Origin: Fimbriimonadia bacterium
GTDB taxonomy: Bacteria; Armatimonadota; Fimbriimonadia; Fimbriimonadales; JABRVX01
DNA: 38,805 bases
Reading direction: 5' to 3'
NCBI GenBank assembly: GCA_039961735.1
Contig: JABRVX010000016.1
Span: 1-38,805 of the forward strand
Shown: piece after piece, positions 1,374 through 12,341 of the stretch
Numbering within the stretch: position 1 is the stretch's first letter
Layout: each line of letters starts with the position of its first letter
Program-made: the position numbers and the translations under genes
The notes under the pieces: model-generated
Databases searched by the model: none
Seen by the model: only the letters and a program-made list of their open reading frames with translations
What the model was told of the DNA's origin: nothing

Positions 1374-2084
1374 TTACTTCCGTCGTCGCGCAGCAAGCAG
1401 ACCGACGAGGCCGATCGCGAGCGCAGCGATGCTACCAGGCTCGGGAACGTTCGCGAAGCCGGGTGTGTCCTGGCCGCCAACCGGATTGAACTGTCCGATC
1501 AGCCAGCCACCAGTTCCGTTCGGATAACGGTACACGTGGCCAGGTGCAAAAGAGCCGTCAGGGCCCACTACGATTGGCGAGTAGTACTTCTCGCTTGTCG
1601 TCCCAGTCGGGTCTATGACAATCGAAACCCAATCGAGGATCGACGTCCACGGCAGGATGTCCAGAGTGCCGTTGTCGTCCAGGTCCAGGTCCTGGTTCAG
1701 CGAGCCGGTGAACCCGGAAACCAACATGTGCGTAACGTTGTCCGTGTTCTCGAAGTTCAGCGGGTTGCTGCCGGGGAGCACGAGGTCGGGCGTTCCCAGA
1801 GTGAACGTCGATTCGGTCACCAGGAAGAAACCGTCTGCCGCGATCGAGTGGCCTGCAAGGTCAACCACGACCTCGATCACGCCGCTGCCGCCGGTGCCGT
1901 CGCCGATCACGAGGTACGTGAGATCGTTCAGCGAGTAGCCGGGTGTGCCGAACAGCTCGAAGTATTCGTCGTTGTCCGTGCCGGGCTGGTCAGTGCGGAT
2001 CTCGTTGATGACGGGAGCCGCAAACGCGGAAGTAAGGAGGCCGAGCCCGAGGGCGCCCGCGCCAATCCTGAAGCCGAAAGCCAT
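1374..2084 (-). CDS. Lamin-tail-like PEP-CTERM secreted protein
   Basis: A 236-residue protein with an N-terminal signal peptide (GAGALGLGLLTSAFA), followed by INEIRTDQPGTDNDEYFELF, which resembles the start of a lamin-tail domain. The C-terminus is VPEPGSIAAL, a hydrophobic helix and ARRRK. This is the classic PEP-CTERM sorting signal, recognised in known systems by an exosortase and linked to export to the cell surface or extracellular matrix. No exosortase gene is in this window. The ATG at 2084 has AAGGAG 9 nt upstream, which fixes the start. Its substrate or partner is unknown. The 148 nt gap to ccmA suggests a separate transcription unit. Confidence 0.85.
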   Translation of the reverse strand: MAFGFRIGAGALGLGLLTSAFAAPVINEIRTDQPGTDNDEYFELFGTPGYSLNDLTYLVIGDGTGGSGVIEVVVDLAGHSIAADGFFLVTESTFTLGTPDLVLPGSNPLNFENTDNVTHMLVSGFTGSLNQDLDLDDNGTLDILPWTSILDWVSIVIDPTGTTSEKYYSPIVVGPDGSFAPGHVYRYPNGTGGWLIGQFNPVGGQDTPGFANVPEPGSIAALAIGLVGLLAARRRK

Positions 2085-2439
2085 TTCGCATCTCCTTTTG
2101 CTATCTAGCGGATCAGCCTCCGGCTGGGTCGAGCCACGAAGCAAAGCAAAGCCGGACAAGCGCTCCGGCCAACAAACAGGAATCCTACCTGCATTGTCTG
2201 CGCATGGGATAGGCCTTTCACCACGGAGCCCCATGTGGACTTGCGACACGGTCCGTCTGTCTCGGCAACGCGATGTCCGACCCCCGCCTCGAGAGCCCGC
2301 CGCTCGCAGCCGAGCGATCTACGCGAGTGCGGGGCCCGGCGGGCTGATAGAGCCCAGATCCGTGCTGCTGCGAGTGCCCCGACGGTTGCATGGAGGAGTT
2401 TAGTACGATACGACGAAAGTAAAGTCCGGAGGTGCGGGC
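2085..2439. other. Divergent intergenic region, no gene seen
   Basis: These 355 nt separate the minus-strand PEP-CTERM gene from the plus-strand molybdoenzyme operon, so they should hold promoters in both directions. The open frames here show no protein-like composition. A weak plus-strand promoter candidate is TTGCAT at 2386-2391 with TACGAC at 2409-2414 (17 nt apart). I recognised no riboswitch or repeat. Confidence 0.5.
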
Positions 2440-3273
2440 ATGCCCGAAATGGCCGAGATCGAAGCAGAGCTTGCGCGTGACTCGACGGTGGAGGACCATG
2501 AGCGACGAGCCATCCTGGGGCTGCTGACCAAGTGGCTGGGCGGAGCGCTTGTCGGCGCGACCCTGATTCGGGGGGCCGACGCACAGCAGACTTCGCAGCC
2601 CACCCCAAAGAAGCGCAGGTATGGCATGGTAATAGACACTCGTAGGTGTGTCGGATGCCGGGCATGCGTGATCGCGTGCAAAGCGGAGAATAAGACTCCT
2701 CCGGGGGTCTACTACGCGGTGGTCGTGGATCAGGTTGTGGGGCCGAGCATCGACGACAAGCCGCTGTTCATGACCAAGCCCTGTTTCCACTGCGAACACC
2801 CGCCTTGTACCGACGTGTGCCCAGTCTCCGCCACATTCAAGCGCGAGCAGGACGGTATCGTCGTGGTGGATTACGATCGCTGCATCGGATGTCGTTACTG
2901 CATGACGGCGTGCCCTTACTCCGCACGCTGGTTCGATTTCGACGAGAACTACCCGGCAGTGGAGCAAGACACTCCGTATCGGAGTGTTCCCTCGCCCGAG
3001 TATCGGCAGTATCGAAAACGACGCCAGGGCCAGTCCCCGGTCGGCAACGTAAGGAAGTGCACGTTCTGCCTGCACCTACAGGACGAGCATGGGAGGTACG
3101 ACAAAGCCTCAGGCCGCTGGCCCGCTTGTGCGAAAACATGTACGGGGCATGCAATCCACTTTGGTGACCTGTCCGACCCTTCAGACGAAGTGTACAGGCT
3201 CCTGCGCGAGAGAACGGCCATCCGCCTCAAGGAGGAGCTCGGTACGGAGCCGAGTGTCTACTACCTTATCTGA
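2440..3273 (+). CDS. 4Fe-4S electron-transfer subunit of Psr/Ttr-type molybdoenzyme
   Basis: A 277-residue ferredoxin-type subunit with four cysteine clusters that would hold four [4Fe-4S] centres. Cluster I is CVGCRACVIAC (from residue 70), then CFHCEHPPCTDVC, then CIGCRYCMTAC, and the fourth is split between CTFC and ACAKTC. This is the layout of PsrB, TtrB and NrfC, which pass electrons between a membrane quinone-reactive subunit and a molybdopterin catalytic subunit. A hydrophobic stretch after ERRAILG (about residues 24-47) looks like a degenerate Tat-type or membrane-anchoring leader, consistent with a periplasm-facing complex. The ATG at 2440 has GGAGGT at 2428-2433. It is first in an operon with NrfD (18 nt gap) and the catalytic subunit. 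Confidence 0.88.
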   Translation: MPEMAEIEAELARDSTVEDHERRAILGLLTKWLGGALVGATLIRGADAQQTSQPTPKKRRYGMVIDTRRCVGCRACVIACKAENKTPPGVYYAVVVDQVVGPSIDDKPLFMTKPCFHCEHPPCTDVCPVSATFKREQDGIVVVDYDRCIGCRYCMTACPYSARWFDFDENYPAVEQDTPYRSVPSPEYRQYRKRRQGQSPVGNVRKCTFCLHLQDEHGRYDKASGRWPACAKTCTGHAIHFGDLSDPSDEVYRLLRERTAIRLKEELGTEPSVYYLI

Positions 3274-3291: not shown

Positions 3292-4566
3292 ATGGTACAA
3301 GCATTAGCAGGATCGTACGACCCGTCCAAGGCGATGAAGCGTCTCTTTTGGGCCGCGGGTATAGTGCTATTCCTGGTGGGCCTGATTGGCTTTTTCGACC
3401 GATTTGTCTACGGACACCTACACGCGCACTATGGCAGTATCGTTACGTGGGGACTGTGGGTGGCGGCGTACATCTACTTCATCGGTCTCTCGGCAGGATC
3501 GTTCCTCATCTCCTCGTTAGTGTATGTTTTCGGAGTCAAGCAGTTCGAGCAGACTGGTCGCCTTGCGCTGTTCACTGCACTGGTCACGCTGGTGTTGGCA
3601 TTGCTCTCCATCGTGTTGGACCTCGGACACATGGGCCGTGCATGGCATGTGATGGCCTACCCCAACTTCAAGTCTCCGATGGCTTGGATGATCTGGCTCT
3701 ACGGGGCGTATATGTTGCTCCTGGCAGCCGAGATATGGTTCGTGGTTCGGCGAGACATGGTGAGACTGTCGGGCGGCAAGGGGCTACGAGCAAAGTTCTA
3801 CCATCTGCTGACGTTCTTTTGCAAGGCAACTACTCCTGAAAGCGAGACCCGCGACCGCCGTGTCGTTCGAGTGTTGGCGACGATCGGCGTGCCTTTGGCA
3901 ATCATGTTCCACGGCGGGGTTGGAGCATTGTTCGGGGTAGTGGCCGCACGTCCACACTGGCACAGTGGTCTCTTTCCCATTCTGTTCGTACTGTCGGCGC
4001 TGGTAAGCGGGGGTGCGCTGCTGACGATGGTGGCAGCGGTGTTCCAGGATGGCTGGCGGCGCAACAGTCAGACCGTGGTTGCGTTGGGACAGCTCGTACT
4101 AGGGCTGTTACTGTTGGACGTGATCTTCCAGGTTTCCGAGTTCCTCGTGGCATTTCGCGGGGGAATACCTGGGCACGTGGCGGGGCTTCAGCTCGTCATC
4201 AGTGGCCCTTACTGGTGGGTGTTCTGGGCTTGGCAGGTAGGAGTCGGCACGCTCGCCCCCATTTTATTGTTGGTGCTACCTACCAAACGCAATCCTGCAT
4301 GGGTATCGCTGGCCGCGCTGCTGATTGCAGCGGGCCTCTTCGGAATGCGCCTGAATATCGTGATCCCGGGCCTCGCAGTCGAAGAGATCAAGGGGCTCTC
4401 GCAAGCGGTCGCCTCACTACGCACGACACCGCACTACTTCCCGAGCCTGCAGGAGTTCCTGGTGACCATCGGCATCGGGGGGCTCGGACTGCTGCTCTTC
4501 GGCCTAGGGGAACTGCTCTTGCCACGCTCGAGTGACGACTTGGAGGGCAAGTATGTACGTCTTTGA
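3292..4566 (+). CDS. NrfD/PsrC-like quinone-interacting membrane subunit
   Basis: A 424-residue polytopic membrane protein with about ten hydrophobic segments, the first near residues 15-35 and the last near 395-415. This is the NrfD/PsrC superfamily, the membrane anchor that exchanges electrons with quinol. Ten helices is more like HybB or ActC than the eight-helix PsrC. It sits between the iron-sulfur and catalytic subunits and overlaps the latter by 14 nt, so the three form one complex. The ATG at 3292 follows GAGG about 10 nt upstream; the ATG at 3334 is a weaker alternative. Whether the complex reduces or oxidises its substrate cannot be told from this subunit. Confidence 0.87.
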   Translation: MVQALAGSYDPSKAMKRLFWAAGIVLFLVGLIGFFDRFVYGHLHAHYGSIVTWGLWVAAYIYFIGLSAGSFLISSLVYVFGVKQFEQTGRLALFTALVTLVLALLSIVLDLGHMGRAWHVMAYPNFKSPMAWMIWLYGAYMLLLAAEIWFVVRRDMVRLSGGKGLRAKFYHLLTFFCKATTPESETRDRRVVRVLATIGVPLAIMFHGGVGALFGVVAARPHWHSGLFPILFVLSALVSGGALLTMVAAVFQDGWRRNSQTVVALGQLVLGLLLLDVIFQVSEFLVAFRGGIPGHVAGLQLVISGPYWWVFWAWQVGVGTLAPILLLVLPTKRNPAWVSLAALLIAAGLFGMRLNIVIPGLAVEEIKGLSQAVASLRTTPHYFPSLQEFLVTIGIGGLGLLLFGLGELLLPRSSDDLEGKYVRL

Positions 4567-7096
4567 TGAGAAGATCGGGAGACGGAGGTTCGTCAAGACG
4601 CTCGTTGCGGGCGCAGCCGCGGGCTCGCTGGCGGGTTGTGCATCGTTCGGATCGCGACCGCGCGACCTCCCTTACGACGAGGAAGGACTTCGGGAGTGGG
4701 GTCGCGAGGCCGGCGAGTGGATTCCGTCTTGCTGCAACATGTGCGGCGGGCAATCCGGCATCCTGTGTCACGTCGTTAACGGCGTGCTAGAGAAGATCGA
4801 ACCGAATCACTGGAACCCGAACAACTACACGAACATCTCTTCGGACTTCTTCGATGGCTACACGGAAGAATTCGGTTGCGCCGAGGGCGGAGCCATTTGT
4901 CCAAAGGGCAACGCCGGCATCATGGCTCTGTACGATCCCGACCGTCTCCGTACTCCACTCAAGCGTACCAATCCAAAGAAGGGACGCGACGAGGACCCTC
5001 GGTGGCAGGAGATAAGTTGGACGCAGGCCGTCCACGAGATCGCGGACAAGTTAGGTGCTCTCCGCGACGCCGGAGAGGCACACAAACTGCTTTGGTGGAG
5101 CGAGGACCACAGCTTCACACACATTCAGGACGATTTCTGCAAACTCTTCGGGTCGCCCAACTACTCGATGCACTCGAACCTATGCGATGTGGCACGGAAG
5201 GCCAGTTTTAAGATGGTCGTCGGGCACGACAGACCACTTGCAGACTTCATCCAATCGAAGTTCATCTTGCTCTTCGGATGGAACCCTACGAGTGCCATCA
5301 AGTGGGTATATCTCCCCAGGATCATCACACGTGCGATCGAGAGAGGTGCGCGGATGGTAGTGGTAGATCCGTACCTCTCCGATACTGCGGCAAAGGCGCA
5401 AGAGTGGGTACCGATTCGCCCTGGTACCGACGGCGCGCTGGCTCTCGCGTTGGGGCACGTAATCGTGCGTGACCACCTGTATGATGAGGGATTCGTCACT
5501 AACTGGACAGTGGGCTTCCCAGAATACCGGGATTTCGTTCGCGACAAGACACCGCAGTGGGCGGAGAAGATCACATCCGTGCCGGCTGCTACGATCGAGC
5601 GCATTGCGCATCAACTGGCCACGATAAAGCCGGCGGTGGTGGATGCATGGAGCGGCCCTGGACATCATTCGAACGGGGTACAGTCGGGCAGGGCAATCGC
5701 CATGCTGGGGGCCCTGATCGGCGGCTACGATCGGCCCGGAACCTTGTTGATCCCGGATAAGCGCGGGGAGAAGCACGTCGAGGTAGAGCCGGACGAGATC
5801 GCGGAACGCTCCCTGGAGCAGCCTCGCTTCGATGGATTGGAAGACTTTCCGTTCGGACACAAATCCGGTGTTTATGGCCGATGTTTCGAACGACTCCTTA
5901 CCGGGCAGGGGCCGTACACGCCGAAGATGGGAATTTGCATATTCCAGAATCTCGTTATGAGCGGCCCTGGCAGTTCGAAGGTCGAGGAGGCGCTCAAGAA
6001 GCTCGAGACACTGGTAGTAGTGGACACCATGATGAGCGAGACCGCTTGGCTCGCAGACTACGCTATTCCCGGTACCGTGTATCTCGAGCGCTACGACCTC
6101 AATTCACACTGGGTGTCATGGCCTGCTCTCGGTCTCAGACAGCCCGTCGTGAAAGCTGCGAAGAGGCTTGCCGAGCCCTATCCCTACCAGGGCGGTATCT
6201 ACGGCCAGATGGCAGAGTACGAGTTCGTGGCTGCCCTAGGGCGCCGGCTAGGTCTGAGAGACCATGGCGGCAAAGAGTTCTTTTTCATCGGACCGCTCCG
6301 AGGCGCACCAATCGAGGACCTGACGGAGTGGTATGAGGACTACCTCAGTAACGAGCTTACACGCGGCGCCCCAGGTATTACCCTAGAGGAGCTGAAACGC
6401 CTACCAGGTGCAGTGTGGGTGGACAGAAGTGGTACGCGATACGAGAAATATGCCGAGGCGCTGTCGCCCGAGGAAGTCCGCAGTGCCGTTTTCGAGGGAG
6501 GTAGACAGAACGATGGAACTGCTATCTTCGACAAGCCCAAGGATCAACACGGGAAGCGCATCGGCACGGTGATCGGTGGGCGGCCCCTCAGAGGATTCGC
6601 CACTCCCAGCGGAAAAGTCGAGTTCGCTAACCCCGCGATGGCCGACCGCAAGGATGCCACAGGCAAGCCCCTGGACCCGCTCCCCGTGTATCTGCCACGC
6701 AACTGGCAGCCGGACTCCGAGTACCCGCTCTACCTTATCAATTGGAAAGAGGCGAGCCATACACACACGCGAACTCAGAACAACGCCTGGTTGCTGGACA
6801 TCAAGCCCAGTAACTCCCTGGTGATTCACCCTGATACGGCGGCGCGACACGGGATTCGGGACGGTGATGAAATTTGGGTGGAGTCGAAGTTCGGCAAAAC
6901 TCGCGCGGTCGCCAAGGTCACGAAGCGGATCCATCCCGAGGTCGTCGGCGCGCAGCACGGCTTCGGACACTGGAGGTCCGGCAGTAGGGCGATGGGCCGT
7001 GGGACTTCGTTCGGAGATCTGAACACGATTGCCTACGACCCCATCAGCGGGCAGGGGTTGCACAAGGAAGTCTGCGTAAAGATCTACCGCATCTGA
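4553..7096 (+). CDS. Molybdopterin oxidoreductase catalytic subunit (Psr/Ttr/Arr-like)
   Basis: An 847-residue Mo/W-bisPGD oxidoreductase of the DMSO reductase superfamily. The N-terminus has a Tat motif RRRFVK (10-15) and a lipobox LAGC (C29), so it may be an exported lipoprotein. The Fe-S motif reads CNMCGGQSGILC (61-72): the expected third cysteine is Ser68. The fourth ligand is probably C116 in ICPKGNAG. The likely Mo ligand is C211 in SNLCDVAR, the pattern of polysulfide, thiosulfate, tetrathionate and arsenate enzymes. The C-terminal dinucleotide-binding part contains QNNAWL and QHGFGHW. The ATG at 4553 has GGAGGG 5 nt upstream. The substrate is not determined; a sulfur or arsenic oxyanion is likeliest by family. 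Confidence 0.87.
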   Translation: MYVFDEKIGRRRFVKTLVAGAAAGSLAGCASFGSRPRDLPYDEEGLREWGREAGEWIPSCCNMCGGQSGILCHVVNGVLEKIEPNHWNPNNYTNISSDFFDGYTEEFGCAEGGAICPKGNAGIMALYDPDRLRTPLKRTNPKKGRDEDPRWQEISWTQAVHEIADKLGALRDAGEAHKLLWWSEDHSFTHIQDDFCKLFGSPNYSMHSNLCDVARKASFKMVVGHDRPLADFIQSKFILLFGWNPTSAIKWVYLPRIITRAIERGARMVVVDPYLSDTAAKAQEWVPIRPGTDGALALALGHVIVRDHLYDEGFVTNWTVGFPEYRDFVRDKTPQWAEKITSVPAATIERIAHQLATIKPAVVDAWSGPGHHSNGVQSGRAIAMLGALIGGYDRPGTLLIPDKRGEKHVEVEPDEIAERSLEQPRFDGLEDFPFGHKSGVYGRCFERLLTGQGPYTPKMGICIFQNLVMSGPGSSKVEEALKKLETLVVVDTMMSETAWLADYAIPGTVYLERYDLNSHWVSWPALGLRQPVVKAAKRLAEPYPYQGGIYGQMAEYEFVAALGRRLGLRDHGGKEFFFIGPLRGAPIEDLTEWYEDYLSNELTRGAPGITLEELKRLPGAVWVDRSGTRYEKYAEALSPEEVRSAVFEGGRQNDGTAIFDKPKDQHGKRIGTVIGGRPLRGFATPSGKVEFANPAMADRKDATGKPLDPLPVYLPRNWQPDSEYPLYLINWKEASHTHTRTQNNAWLLDIKPSNSLVIHPDTAARHGIRDGDEIWVESKFGKTRAVAKVTKRIHPEVVGAQHGFGHWRSGSRAMGRGTSFGDLNTIAYDPISGQGLHKEVCVKIYRI

Positions 7097-7932: not shown

Positions 7933-8882
7933 GAACCTGGCGGCGTGAAGCCGGTCGAAGCGGTCTCGCCCCGCCGCGGCCAGTCCACGGCGTCCAGCAT
8001 TCTAGAGATGGCTTCGTAGTCGGGTGCGAAGTCGTCAGAACTGATGAAGCGCGTCGGCAGGATGACACTCTTCACGTCGGTCGAGGGGTTCAAGCTGCGC
8101 CCCCATAACATCAGCGAGGCGAGCTGGTTCGCGTCTAGTCCGGTGACGCTTCGGCGCACGGTCTCGGCGATGCGCGGAATCGCGACGGGCGGCTGTTCGG
8201 CGATTCGGCGCTGTAGTGCGAGAAGAAAGTTCTGTTGTCGCTTCCCACGCATGAAGTCGCTGTCGGTATGCCGGAAGCGCACGTAGCCCATCGCCTGCTC
8301 GCCGTTCAGCACCTGAGGGCCTTTCTTCAGGTTGATGTACAATCCCCCCGCGCGGTCCGTGTACTTCATGTTCTTCTCGACATCCACCCACACGCCGCCG
8401 ACTTCGTCCACCAGTCGCTTGAAGCCTTGGTAGTTCAGCGTCACCACGTAGTCGATCTCGACCCCCAGCATGTTCTCGACGGTAGCTTTAGCCAACGCGG
8501 GCCCGCCGTAAGCGTTAGCGGCGTTGATCTTGGAGCGGCCCCGTCGCCCAGGGATCTCCACATAGGTGTCCCTCGGGATGGAGATGAGAAAGGCGCGTTT
8601 CTGGCGCAGGTCCAGCCGTGCGACCATCATCGTGTCGCTGCGCGTGTGGTCGAACGTGACGAAGCCTCTCTTGCCATAGTTCGCATCTACACCCAGCGCG
8701 AGGATGGTGATAGTGTCCTTCGCGAACACGCGCTCCGGTGAGGTGCCGCCAGCGAGATTCATTATAGCAGCGGTGAGCAGCGGGCTGCCACCCAGCGTCA
8801 TGCCCGCGCCGAGTGACACTCCGCACAGGAGCGCCCACGAGCACCACTTCAGTAGGACCTTCCAAGTCGGCGAGCTATCCAT
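7929..8882 (-). CDS. LytR-CpsA-Psr (LCP) family protein
   Basis: A 317-residue LCP protein: an N-terminal membrane helix (about residues 12-30), then the LCP domain with LGVDANYG, SDTMMVARLD, SIPRDTYVEIPG, KINAANAYGG and the late YVRFRHTDSDFMRGKRQQ. Known LCP enzymes transfer undecaprenyl-linked glycopolymers to peptidoglycan or other acceptors outside the membrane. The start at ATG 8882 is supported by GGAGGT just upstream and by a good promoter at 8920-8949. The longer frame from TTG 8936 would begin upstream of that -10, so it is rejected. It shares an operon with the anchored DUF1559-like protein (ATGA overlap). Confidence 0.88.
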   Translation of the reverse strand: MDSSPTWKVLLKWCSWALLCGVSLGAGMTLGGSPLLTAAIMNLAGGTSPERVFAKDTITILALGVDANYGKRGFVTFDHTRSDTMMVARLDLRQKRAFLISIPRDTYVEIPGRRGRSKINAANAYGGPALAKATVENMLGVEIDYVVTLNYQGFKRLVDEVGGVWVDVEKNMKYTDRAGGLYINLKKGPQVLNGEQAMGYVRFRHTDSDFMRGKRQQNFLLALQRRIAEQPPVAIPRIAETVRRSVTGLDANQLASLMLWGRSLNPSTDVKSVILPTRFISSDDFAPDYEAISRMLDAVDWPRRGETASTGFTPPGS

Positions 8883-9119: not shown

Positions 9120-12100
9120 TTAGGGTTGGATTAGTTTCGGCAGCGCCAGATTCGGGCGCTTGCTGAAGTCCGGCTTGGGCGGCGGCTCCTTCGCCAACAG
9201 CTCCTGCACCATCTCGATGGCCTTCTCCATCTGGGGATCGCGGCCCGCCACGTAGTCTTGCGGCGTGATGTCTATGTCCACGTCCGGGTCGGTGCCGTAG
9301 TTCTCCACACCCCACCCCACGTCGAAGAACCAGAACGAGTATTCCGGCTGCGAGGTGATGGTACCGTCGGCCAGCATGTTGCGAGGCCAGATTCCTATCA
9401 CCCCACCCCACGTGCGTTTGCCGATCAGCGGCCCGAGGCCCATCAACTTCCACGCGTGGCTCACGATGTCACCGTCGGACCCGGCCCACTGATTGGTCAG
9501 CGCCACCATCGGGCCCGCGACCGAGAAGGGCGGATAGGGCTCGGGCTGGCCCCAGCGCGACACGTCGTAGCCGATCCGCTTGCGCGCCAGCTTTTCCAGC
9601 AGCAGGCATGATACGTGCCCGCCTCGGTTGTAGCGCACATCCACGATCATGGCCTCGCGTGCCACCTCGGCTAGGAAGAGGCGGTGGAACTCGGCATAGC
9701 CTTGGGGTCCCATGTCGGGTATGTGTACGTAGCCGACGCGGCCCCCGGTCTTCTCGTGCACGTAGCGCCGGTTGGCTTCCACCCACTCTCGATAACGCAG
9801 TTTGAACTCGCCTTTGAGCGCCTTGACGGTGACATCGCGCCTGGCTCCGTCCGTACCTTCGATTGTCAGAACTACCTCCGACTCTGCTTGGTGGACTAGC
9901 GCTTGGTAGGGCGAGAAGTCTTTGGACAGCGGCCGACCGTTCACAGCTAACAGTGCATCACCGACACTTACGTTCACTCCTGGTGCCAGAAGGGGTGACG
10001 AGCACTGATCCTCTCCCGGCGCGCCGGGCAGGATGGAAGTGAAGCGATAGTGGGTCCCGTCGAAGGCGATGTCCGCACCCAGGAAGCCCTGCGGATAGGT
10101 GGGTTCGGGTCGGTAGTCGCCCCCGAACTCATAGGCATGCGAGGTGCCCAGCTCGCCTTGCATCTCCCACACCAAATCGGAGAACTCTCCACGAGTGCTA
10201 ACACGATCTATGAGCGGTGAGTAACGGTCCCACACCGCGTCCCACTCGATCTGCGACATATCCTCGGTCCAGAAGTGCTCGCGCTGCAGCCGCCACGCCT
10301 CTCGCGCCATCTGCTTCCACTCGACCGGAGGAACCACTGACAACTTGATACGTGTCAGGTTCACCCATCCGGACAGTCGTCCCGGCTCCTCCTTCTCCAT
10401 CCTCTCGTCTGGTTTGGCACCCGCCTTCACGACGCGTAGCCGAGCCCCCGCCTGGTATGCCATCGTCTTCGAGTCGCGAGAGAGGGTGAAACCACTCATG
10501 CCTTGCACCAGGGGCTCCACCTTCTGCGTATCGAAGTCGAACATCTCCAGCGTTGCGCGCGCGGAAGGCTCGGTCTCCGGCCAGGGGATGTCCAGAGCGC
10601 CCATCGGCTGTACGGAGGTGAATAGCACCTTGCCGGGGATGCCGGCGATGCGCTGGTAGATGCCCTCTGCAACCGGGAACGCCAGCACGCGATTGGTGAT
10701 GCCGTCCAGATCGATCTCCACGGGCTTCGGGCCTTCTTCCTTCTTCTCGCCCTCTTCTGCGGGCGACGTCTCCGGCTTGGCCGGCTCGAGCGGGCGCGGT
10801 TCTGGTAAGAACGGCGAGCGGGCATCCGCCTTCAGGGTGATTACATACGGCTTCATCCCTTTGGGGAAGCCGAGATCGAAGTGAAGGTTGTCATAAACCG
10901 GGTTCAGCACTCGCATGCCGAGGAAATAGAGGTACTTGCCCTCCGGATCGAACGCAGGTTCGACGTCGTGCAGCACGGGCTCGGTGGCAAAGTGCGTGTC
11001 GCCCGTCTCGCGGTTCCACAGCTTGATGGCCGTCACGTAGTTATCGAGCGGGAGTCCGTAGGCGGCCCAGCGTCCGTCCGGCGACCAGCAAAACCCCTGG
11101 ATGGGACGTGCCTGGCTGGCGTCCACTCGCGCACACGTGCCAGCTTCCAGATCCACGAACACTAACTCGTTGCGATGATTCGCGAGCAGTGCATGGTCTG
11201 CGGTGGGCGAGATGCGCACTTCCGCTGGCCGTCCGATGTCCAACCCTTCGATCCGTTTGCACTCGCCGTTCTTCGTGTCATGGATATCGAGTGCGTAATC
11301 GCCCCCCTCGTCCGTGACTGTCAGCACGCGCTTACCGTCGTTCAGCCATCTCGTCAGCCGATACCTGGCAGGAGCATCGGGGTGCCCTTGCGACACGACC
11401 GCGCCCTCCCAATTGCCCATCACGAAGCTCTTGCCACGGGCGTTGATGGCTAGTGAGTGCCCTTCGGGATGCAGGTCGTAGGTTTCGAGATACTTGGCGG
11501 CATCCACGAACTTCCGTTGACGTTGCGCACGCGAGCCCGTGTACTCGACGTTCACCTTTTCGTACCTGTCGGACTCGATGTCGTACACATACAGGTCCGC
11601 GCCAGAGTGGTACACGATTCGCTTTCCGTCGCTGTTAGGGAATCGCACGAAGTAGTCGGAGTGGTGGGTGTGCCGCTTCAGGTCCTCGCCTTTCGGCGTG
11701 CAGGAGTATAGGTTCGCGATGCCCTCGTGATCGGAGATGAAGTACACCCGCTCGCCGATCCACATCGGTCTCGCGAGGTTGCCCTTCAGCTGGATCAGAC
11801 GCTCGAACACCCCGTTGCCCTCCCGGTCGATCCACAGATCGCCCGCGGTGCCGCCACGATAGCGCTTCCACCTGGCAGGGTCGTTGTTGTTACGTCCCAG
11901 CACGGTAGCCCTTCCACAGTGCACCCAGATGCTGACGGCGGGTCCGACGGGCCACGGCTCGTGCATACCACCTTCCGGCCGGATCGCGTGCACGTAGCCG
12001 ATGCGGTCCCGTGGTTGTCCGTAGTCGGTGCTGAACAGGATATATGAGCCACACGGCGTCCACCCGAGTACCGTGCTATTGCAGCCGAGGTAGGTGACCC

Positions 12101-12341
12101 GGCGCACGGGCCCGCCCTCGGCTGGCATCACGTACACCTCGGGGTTGCCCTCTTCGCGCCCTGTGAAGGCAATGGTTTTGCCGTCCGGCGAGAAATGCGG
12201 GTTGGCGACGGCACCCAAATTCGCGGTCAAGCGACGCGCGACGCCGCCCGCCGCGGGCACCTCCCACAGATCGTCCTCGGATACGAACACGATACGGTCG
12301 CCGTAAATCGCGGGGAAACGATAGTAACCGGATGCAGACAT
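9120..12341 (-). CDS. Tricorn protease homolog (S41 family)
   Basis: A 1073-residue tricorn-type protease, the full family length. Residues 1 to about 640 form WD/TolB-like propeller repeats (FSPDGKTIAFTGREEGNPEV, WSPDGRWAAYG). A PDZ-like domain follows the catalytic histidine region, then the S41 core. Catalytic residues align with the Thermoplasma enzyme: S734-H735 in GTSHAYE, nucleophile S955 in WAGSDGD and E1013 in VENYG, all shifted by about 10 from the archaeal numbers I recall (745/746, 965, 1023). A charged low-complexity linker (EEGEKKEEGPKP) lies around residue 540. Known tricorn degrades peptides released by the proteasome; no signal peptide is seen here, so it is probably cytoplasmic. 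The ATG at 12341 has GGGAGGG 8 nt upstream. Confidence 0.93.
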   Translation of the reverse strand: MSASGYYRFPAIYGDRIVFVSEDDLWEVPAAGGVARRLTANLGAVANPHFSPDGKTIAFTGREEGNPEVYVMPAEGGPVRRVTYLGCNSTVLGWTPCGSYILFSTDYGQPRDRIGYVHAIRPEGGMHEPWPVGPAVSIWVHCGRATVLGRNNNDPARWKRYRGGTAGDLWIDREGNGVFERLIQLKGNLARPMWIGERVYFISDHEGIANLYSCTPKGEDLKRHTHHSDYFVRFPNSDGKRIVYHSGADLYVYDIESDRYEKVNVEYTGSRAQRQRKFVDAAKYLETYDLHPEGHSLAINARGKSFVMGNWEGAVVSQGHPDAPARYRLTRWLNDGKRVLTVTDEGGDYALDIHDTKNGECKRIEGLDIGRPAEVRISPTADHALLANHRNELVFVDLEAGTCARVDASQARPIQGFCWSPDGRWAAYGLPLDNYVTAIKLWNRETGDTHFATEPVLHDVEPAFDPEGKYLYFLGMRVLNPVYDNLHFDLGFPKGMKPYVITLKADARSPFLPEPRPLEPAKPETSPAEEGEKKEEGPKPVEIDLDGITNRVLAFPVAEGIYQRIAGIPGKVLFTSVQPMGALDIPWPETEPSARATLEMFDFDTQKVEPLVQGMSGFTLSRDSKTMAYQAGARLRVVKAGAKPDERMEKEEPGRLSGWVNLTRIKLSVVPPVEWKQMAREAWRLQREHFWTEDMSQIEWDAVWDRYSPLIDRVSTRGEFSDLVWEMQGELGTSHAYEFGGDYRPEPTYPQGFLGADIAFDGTHYRFTSILPGAPGEDQCSSPLLAPGVNVSVGDALLAVNGRPLSKDFSPYQALVHQAESEVVLTIEGTDGARRDVTVKALKGEFKLRYREWVEANRRYVHEKTGGRVGYVHIPDMGPQGYAEFHRLFLAEVAREAMIVDVRYNRGGHVSCLLLEKLARKRIGYDVSRWGQPEPYPPFSVAGPMVALTNQWAGSDGDIVSHAWKLMGLGPLIGKRTWGGVIGIWPRNMLADGTITSQPEYSFWFFDVGWGVENYGTDPDVDIDITPQDYVAGRDPQMEKAIEMVQELLAKEPPPKPDFSKRPNLALPKLIQP

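Follow-up and report, generated by a model that had tools for sequence, protein, structure and literature searches.

Serine or threonine at the third FS0 ligand position marks a rare, multi-phylum clade of molybdoenzymes

In molybdoenzymes the proximal iron-sulfur cluster FS0 has the Mo site on one side and the electron chain on the other; its canonical [4Fe-4S] motif is C-x2-C-x3-C-xn-C. Sites with three cysteines and one other residue have nevertheless been described in nature: the available text of the respective papers gives His at motif position 1 in NAR and EbDH (PMC8387239, PMC8840923), Asp71 at position 2 in anammox NXR (PMC8387239) and Ser at position 4 in AioA, which holds a [3Fe-4S] cluster at +270 mV (PMC3758308), with HxxxCxxxC as the type II motif. 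The authors of the NXR paper hold, in the portion of the text available, that non-Cys ligands tune the FS0 potential in NXR and NAR (PMC8387239). FS0 assembly also gates insertion of the Mo cofactor in NarG, according to the accessible part of another paper, and likewise in DmsA, judging from the title of a reference there (PMC5123574). For motif position 3, a limited search of the open-licence PMC literature yielded no natural FS0 variant that we recognised in the text available. Cys-to-Ser work on DmsA reportedly exists.

The window analysed here, a stretch of 38,805 nucleotides from a Fimbriimonadia bacterium, carries an operon in the order Fe-S subunit, NrfD, MopB (Table 1). In the 847-aa protein the Molybdopterin, Molydop_binding and Molybdop_Fe4S4 domains exceed their Pfam cut-offs, the molybdopterin and dinucleotide-binding domains placing it in the DMSO reductase (MopB) superfamily; MopB, the four-cluster Fe-S subunit and the membrane anchor, all in one operon, make up a complex iron-sulfur molybdoenzyme (CISM) with an NrfD anchor. 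A paralogue in the same genome, 68% identical to the window MopB (L002:1459-4011 / L129, contig C36:35573-38080), has an Fe-S gene nearby; no NrfD gene was found close by. Elsewhere in the window lie a neighbouring gene whose product has a C-terminal PEP-CTERM motif (1374-2249, minus strand) and a gene for a 1073-aa, Tricorn-protease-like protein (9120-12341, minus strand).

Table 1. Operon genes and FS0-related residues, in window coordinates
Feature	Position	Strand	Observation
Fe-S subunit, four-cluster, 16 Cys, DsrO/TtrB/QrcC-like	2440..3273	+	upstream of NrfD gene
NrfD/PsrC-type membrane subunit	3292..4566	+	14-base overlap with MopB gene start
MopB / DMSO reductase family catalytic subunit, 847 aa	4553..7096	+	Pfam domains; RRxF (Tat-type) N-terminus
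FS0 loop C60 C61 N M C64 G G Q S68	4730..4756	+	conserved across the clade
Cys60 (TGC), extra Cys directly before the first ligand	4730..4732	+	35/36 readable clade rows, 0/47 outside rows
Ser68 (TCC), third-ligand position	4754..4756	+	Ser 27 / Thr 9 in 36 readable clade rows
Cys72 (TGT), variable, non-ligand	4766..4768	+	C 17, V 16, A 3 of 36 readable rows
Cys109	4877..4879	+	19/36 clade rows; within a clade-specific insertion of ~20 residues
Cys116 of CPKG, fourth ligand position	4898..4900	+	36/36 clade rows
Cys211, presumed Mo ligand	5183..5185	+	aligns with ArrA active-site Cys; 36/36 clade rows

Read from the ATG at 4553, residues 61-72 of the MopB protein are CNMCGGQSGILC (4733-4768), and with the preceding residue the motif becomes C60-C61-N-M-C64-G-G-Q-S68-G-I-L-C72. 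The original prediction had seen in Ser68, whose TCC codon is one base away from TGC, a replacement of the third cysteine, and the assignment is upheld, because an ungapped alignment to Thermus PsrA pairs S68 with the RCG cysteine of CEGCFWRCG (a short stretch that scores only 3 bits) and Cys occupies that column in 45 of the 47 homologues outside the clade defined below. Cys60 adjoining Cys61, as well as the further cysteines at 109 and 116, had been overlooked. Neither known motif fits: the third position of the canonical one is Ser or Thr in every readable clade row, and the AioA-type [3Fe-4S] motif, C-x2-C-x3-C-x70-S, would have Ser fourth, where the window protein has Ser third and Cys fourth.

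Homologues came from an initial contig scan, which returned 21 loci in named records from many phyla, one of them a strain record of Stygiobacter electus, and from profile searches of 291 genomes of the window's phylum, of 14 genomes behind loci, and of five sets of genomes (285, 95, 46, 294 and 387) drawn around five of these 14. Members of the clade are rare: scores of 1,200 bits or more were reached in 5/291 genomes of the window's phylum, query genome included, with a further, divergent member at 987 bits, and in 9/285, 2/95, 1/46, 4/294 and 1/387 genomes of the surrounding draws, the query genome being included each time. No relatives were found in viral contigs. With the clade defined as sequences scoring >900 bits against the clade profile, and duplicate loci omitted, the alignment holds 37 rows from the clade and 47 from outside it, among the latter L083, which duplicates a gene in L010; an outside fragment without the motif region (L079) was left out of the counts. 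In one row of the clade, L018, a frameshift falls at the motif, which reads CCNMCGGQSG in the other frame, and 36 readable clade rows remain; the frameshift lies near position 8231 of that locus, immediately after the FS0 motif. A further copy, L110 (G994:C9:233080-233895), appears decayed, with seven internal stops.

The homologue alignment that the original prediction proposed shows a conserved hydroxyl residue: Cys, Ala and Gly are found at position 68 in none of the readable clade rows, and the codons are TCN (26) and AGC (1) for Ser and ACN (9) for Thr. C61, C64, C116 and C211 are present in 36/36 rows, as are G65, G66, G69 and G119, and we take the Cys211 column to be the Mo-ligand position of the window protein, in the role of the ArrA active-site Cys. 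Restriction to Ser and Thr is moderately unusual, since it is shared by 3/17 of the variable Ser-majority columns in the clade, including the neighbouring residue 59; such variation is by itself modest evidence. Cys60 is missing from a single readable member, L088:1375-3945, which has Thr60 and carries Cys114 beside the fourth ligand C116. Among outside rows, position 68 departs from Cys only in two, both with Asp and neither with C60: L091:1486-3981, from an Omnitrophota-centred draw, and L111:5848-8484, on plasmid pAZKH of Azoarcus sp. KH32C, of which ten further readable relatives all have Cys. Cys109 and Cys114 were considered as compensating ligands and rejected, the former because it occurs in little more than half of the readable rows, the latter, as a general solution, because only 6/36 have it.

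A tree of 82 rows (omitting L018, L079 and L083), built by a quick method with SH-aLRT support only, unites the 36 Ser/Thr rows in one group that has support 100 and a stem length of 0.75 changes per site. Because all these rows form a single group, the third cysteine was, on this tree, lost once in the clade ancestor and never regained, and the gain of Cys60 falls on the same stem branch. The four residue labels at position 68 need 5 changes in total versus a shuffled mean of 32.4; two further changes are required by the Asp68 rows, which lie in a neighbouring subtree, one of the two having a Cys row (L033) as its sister. On alignment and tree, Asp68 replaced this ligand separately, without the extra Cys60. 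By their record titles, mostly those of metagenome bins, the clade members belong to many different phyla, which suggests horizontal transfer. Ser68 is a fixed signature of a rare, multi-phylum enzyme clade and not a one-off mutation or, as had been supposed, a peculiarity of one protein: the same-genome paralogue and all readable clade homologues have Ser or Thr.

Of two predicted structures, the first AF2 model has pLDDT <50 over most of residues 51-130 and is uninformative for the loop. The second and better model (mean pLDDT 81.6, pTM 0.84), which is cofactor-free, runs from strand 55-58 through the cluster loop into strands 70-75 and 78-84; the 10-residue blocks covering the loop average pLDDT 59 and 75, and residues 89-113 are at pLDDT <50.

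What we infer about the cluster (its presence, nuclearity, ligands, potential and electron path) can be put as follows. A periplasm-facing CISM of Fe-S subunit, NrfD and MopB would carry, as its proximal cluster, an FS0 whose non-canonical ligand set was fixed once in the clade ancestor. The third Cys would have given way to a hydroxyl residue, Ser and in part Thr, with C61, C64 and C116 retained; the fourth iron would either be ligated by the Ser/Thr68 oxygen or be absent, giving a [3Fe-4S] cluster; and FS0 would still relay electrons between Mo and the 16-Cys subunit, at an altered potential.

That a cluster is kept at all is very probable: neither the three ligand cysteines nor the glycines around them vary, and the complex has an intact electron-transfer subunit. 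The absence of one canonical ligand might instead point to loss of FS0, as in TorA/DorA-type enzymes, with the remaining cysteines as relics or structural residues, but this is improbable given C61, C64 and C116 in every readable row at the divergence of the clade, a Molybdop_Fe4S4 domain still above its cut-off and a full electron-transfer subunit in the complex. Of the outcomes first envisaged for the cluster, Ser ligation or another alteration is plausible, and a lost cluster is disfavoured. Non-Cys tuning of FS0, proposed for NXR and NAR in the available text (PMC8387239), agrees with the original idea that the changed site may tune the redox potential. The assembly behind the window has 77 contigs, but an error in sequencing or assembly, like a lone mutant, has a negligible claim and is refuted by the homologues: the Ser recurs in the paralogue and, with varied codons, in independent assemblies. 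Scarcely more can be said for a shifted register with Cys72 as the third ligand, the role implied for it at the outset; the window protein and 17 of the readable clade rows have this Cys, but the other 19, the paralogue included, have Val or Ala, Val72 homologues keep the rest of the motif, no homologue shows such a register, and the better model predicts residue 72 within strand 70-75. We reject Cys72 as a ligand on its variability and the predicted beta-strand; if a ligand has shifted, Cys60 is the better candidate.

For the fourth site three readings are left: the Ser/Thr oxygen, an empty site and Cys60. FS0 kept as a three-Cys cluster, either a [4Fe-4S] cluster with the Ser/Thr68 oxygen on its fourth iron or a [3Fe-4S] cluster without that iron, is the most likely reading, and we hold it just probable. 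Oxygen ligation is favoured by the strict Ser/Thr conservation and by Asp elsewhere at the same site, again an oxygen donor, and an empty fourth site by AioA, in which three Cys and a Ser go with a [3Fe-4S] cluster; three-Cys-plus-one precedents (Asp, His, Ser) are at hand in nature. Against this reading, Thr is a rare Fe ligand, whatever Ser and Thr may indicate goes back to one ancestral change, and Cys60, whose gain maps to the same stem branch and whose conservation almost equals that of the hydroxyl, may itself be the fourth ligand. Cys60 would then have replaced the third Cys in an all-Cys [4Fe-4S] cluster held by the C60-C61 pair, C64 and C116, Ser/Thr68 only forming a hydrogen bond. 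We regard such a swap as possible though doubtful. It accords with the restriction of C60 to the clade, with the coincidence of its gain and the third-Cys loss, and with the extra Cys114 in the lone row without it; moreover, the spacing C60-x3-C64-x3-S68 is that of the type II HxxxCxxxC, so that residue 60 stands at a ligand position described in the available literature. Adjacent cysteines serve as ligands in proteins such as HdrB and O2-tolerant hydrogenases, but two neighbouring Cys on one cubane are rare. Under a swap, position 68 would also be free to drift, yet it is Ser or Thr throughout; L088 does without C60, and Cys114 occurs as well in five rows that retain it.

Around the clade enzymes, an Fe-S gene lies near MopB at 34/37 loci, the 3 misses being at contig ends with 40-1,296 bases of upstream sequence, and an NrfD gene at 27/37; porin genes lie near many loci. 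A TorD-like chaperone gene follows MopB at 7/37 loci (L020, L021, L114, L115, L116, L118, L119), a count for which MopB was not placed in L006 and L007 and another MopB gene was taken in L010. A Tat-plus-lipobox pattern occurs in 13/36 clade rows only, and we do not claim conserved lipoprotein status. In 4/31 clade genomes, versus 0.14 expected for a gene chosen post hoc, the enzyme has an Acr3 arsenite efflux gene no more than 10 kb away (L018:4555-5685, L021:15940-17070, L022:3566-4757 and G967:C1:314280-315269, one of the four being broken); in the window genome, Acr3 is on a different contig (C20). This linkage is no more than suggestive of an arsenic role.

We lean towards the view that a natural lineage rewired FS0 at its third ligand, loss of Cys to Ser/Thr being paired with gain of an adjacent Cys-Cys, and that Asp68 arose separately elsewhere. 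If so, Cys, Ser, Thr and Asp at position 68 would form a natural series for testing FS0 ligation against electron flow, and a clade that keeps the enzyme with a replaced cluster ligand would test how much of the canonical motif is required, and also whether cluster potential is matched to a possibly metalloid substrate.

Among known systems, unplaced PsrA/PhsA/SrrA-like MopB lineages reported in 2023 (PMC10100899) apparently share the Cys Mo ligand, and the available part of that text makes no mention of an S/T68 motif. By fold, the solved structures nearest to the predicted model are PsrA/PhsA (PDB 2vpw; Z 35.0, rmsd 2.9, 684 aligned) and, in a tie, ArrA (PDB 6cz7; Z 34.9, rmsd 3.2, 714 aligned). 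PsrA/PhsA likewise has Fe-S and NrfD partners and a Cys in the Mo-ligand column; however, it has the third FS0 Cys and lacks both C60 and the insertion before the fourth Cys, and the window protein scores 357.6 bits against the curated cut-off of 694 for PhsA thiosulfate reductase (NF012032), outside that family. ArrA shares the RTNPKKGRD stretch and the HSxxC active-site stretch but retains the canonical third Cys (CTSWC); its Arg-Tyr stretch (RYSHIN in the alignment) has no match in the window protein, which at 247.6 bits lies far below the curated cut-off of 1600 for ArrA arsenate reductase (NF041714). AioA offers the same count of three Cys and one Ser with, in the text available, a [3Fe-4S] cluster (PMC3758308), although its Ser is at the fourth position and not the third, its partner is a Rieske protein and its Mo has no protein ligand. 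Anammox NXR-A and the type II enzymes NarG/EbdA also bear natural non-Cys FS0 ligands, thought in the accessible portions of these papers to tune the potential (PMC8387239, PMC8840923), but their substitutions are at position 2 (Asp) or position 1 (His), whereas the clade described here has its replacement at position 3.
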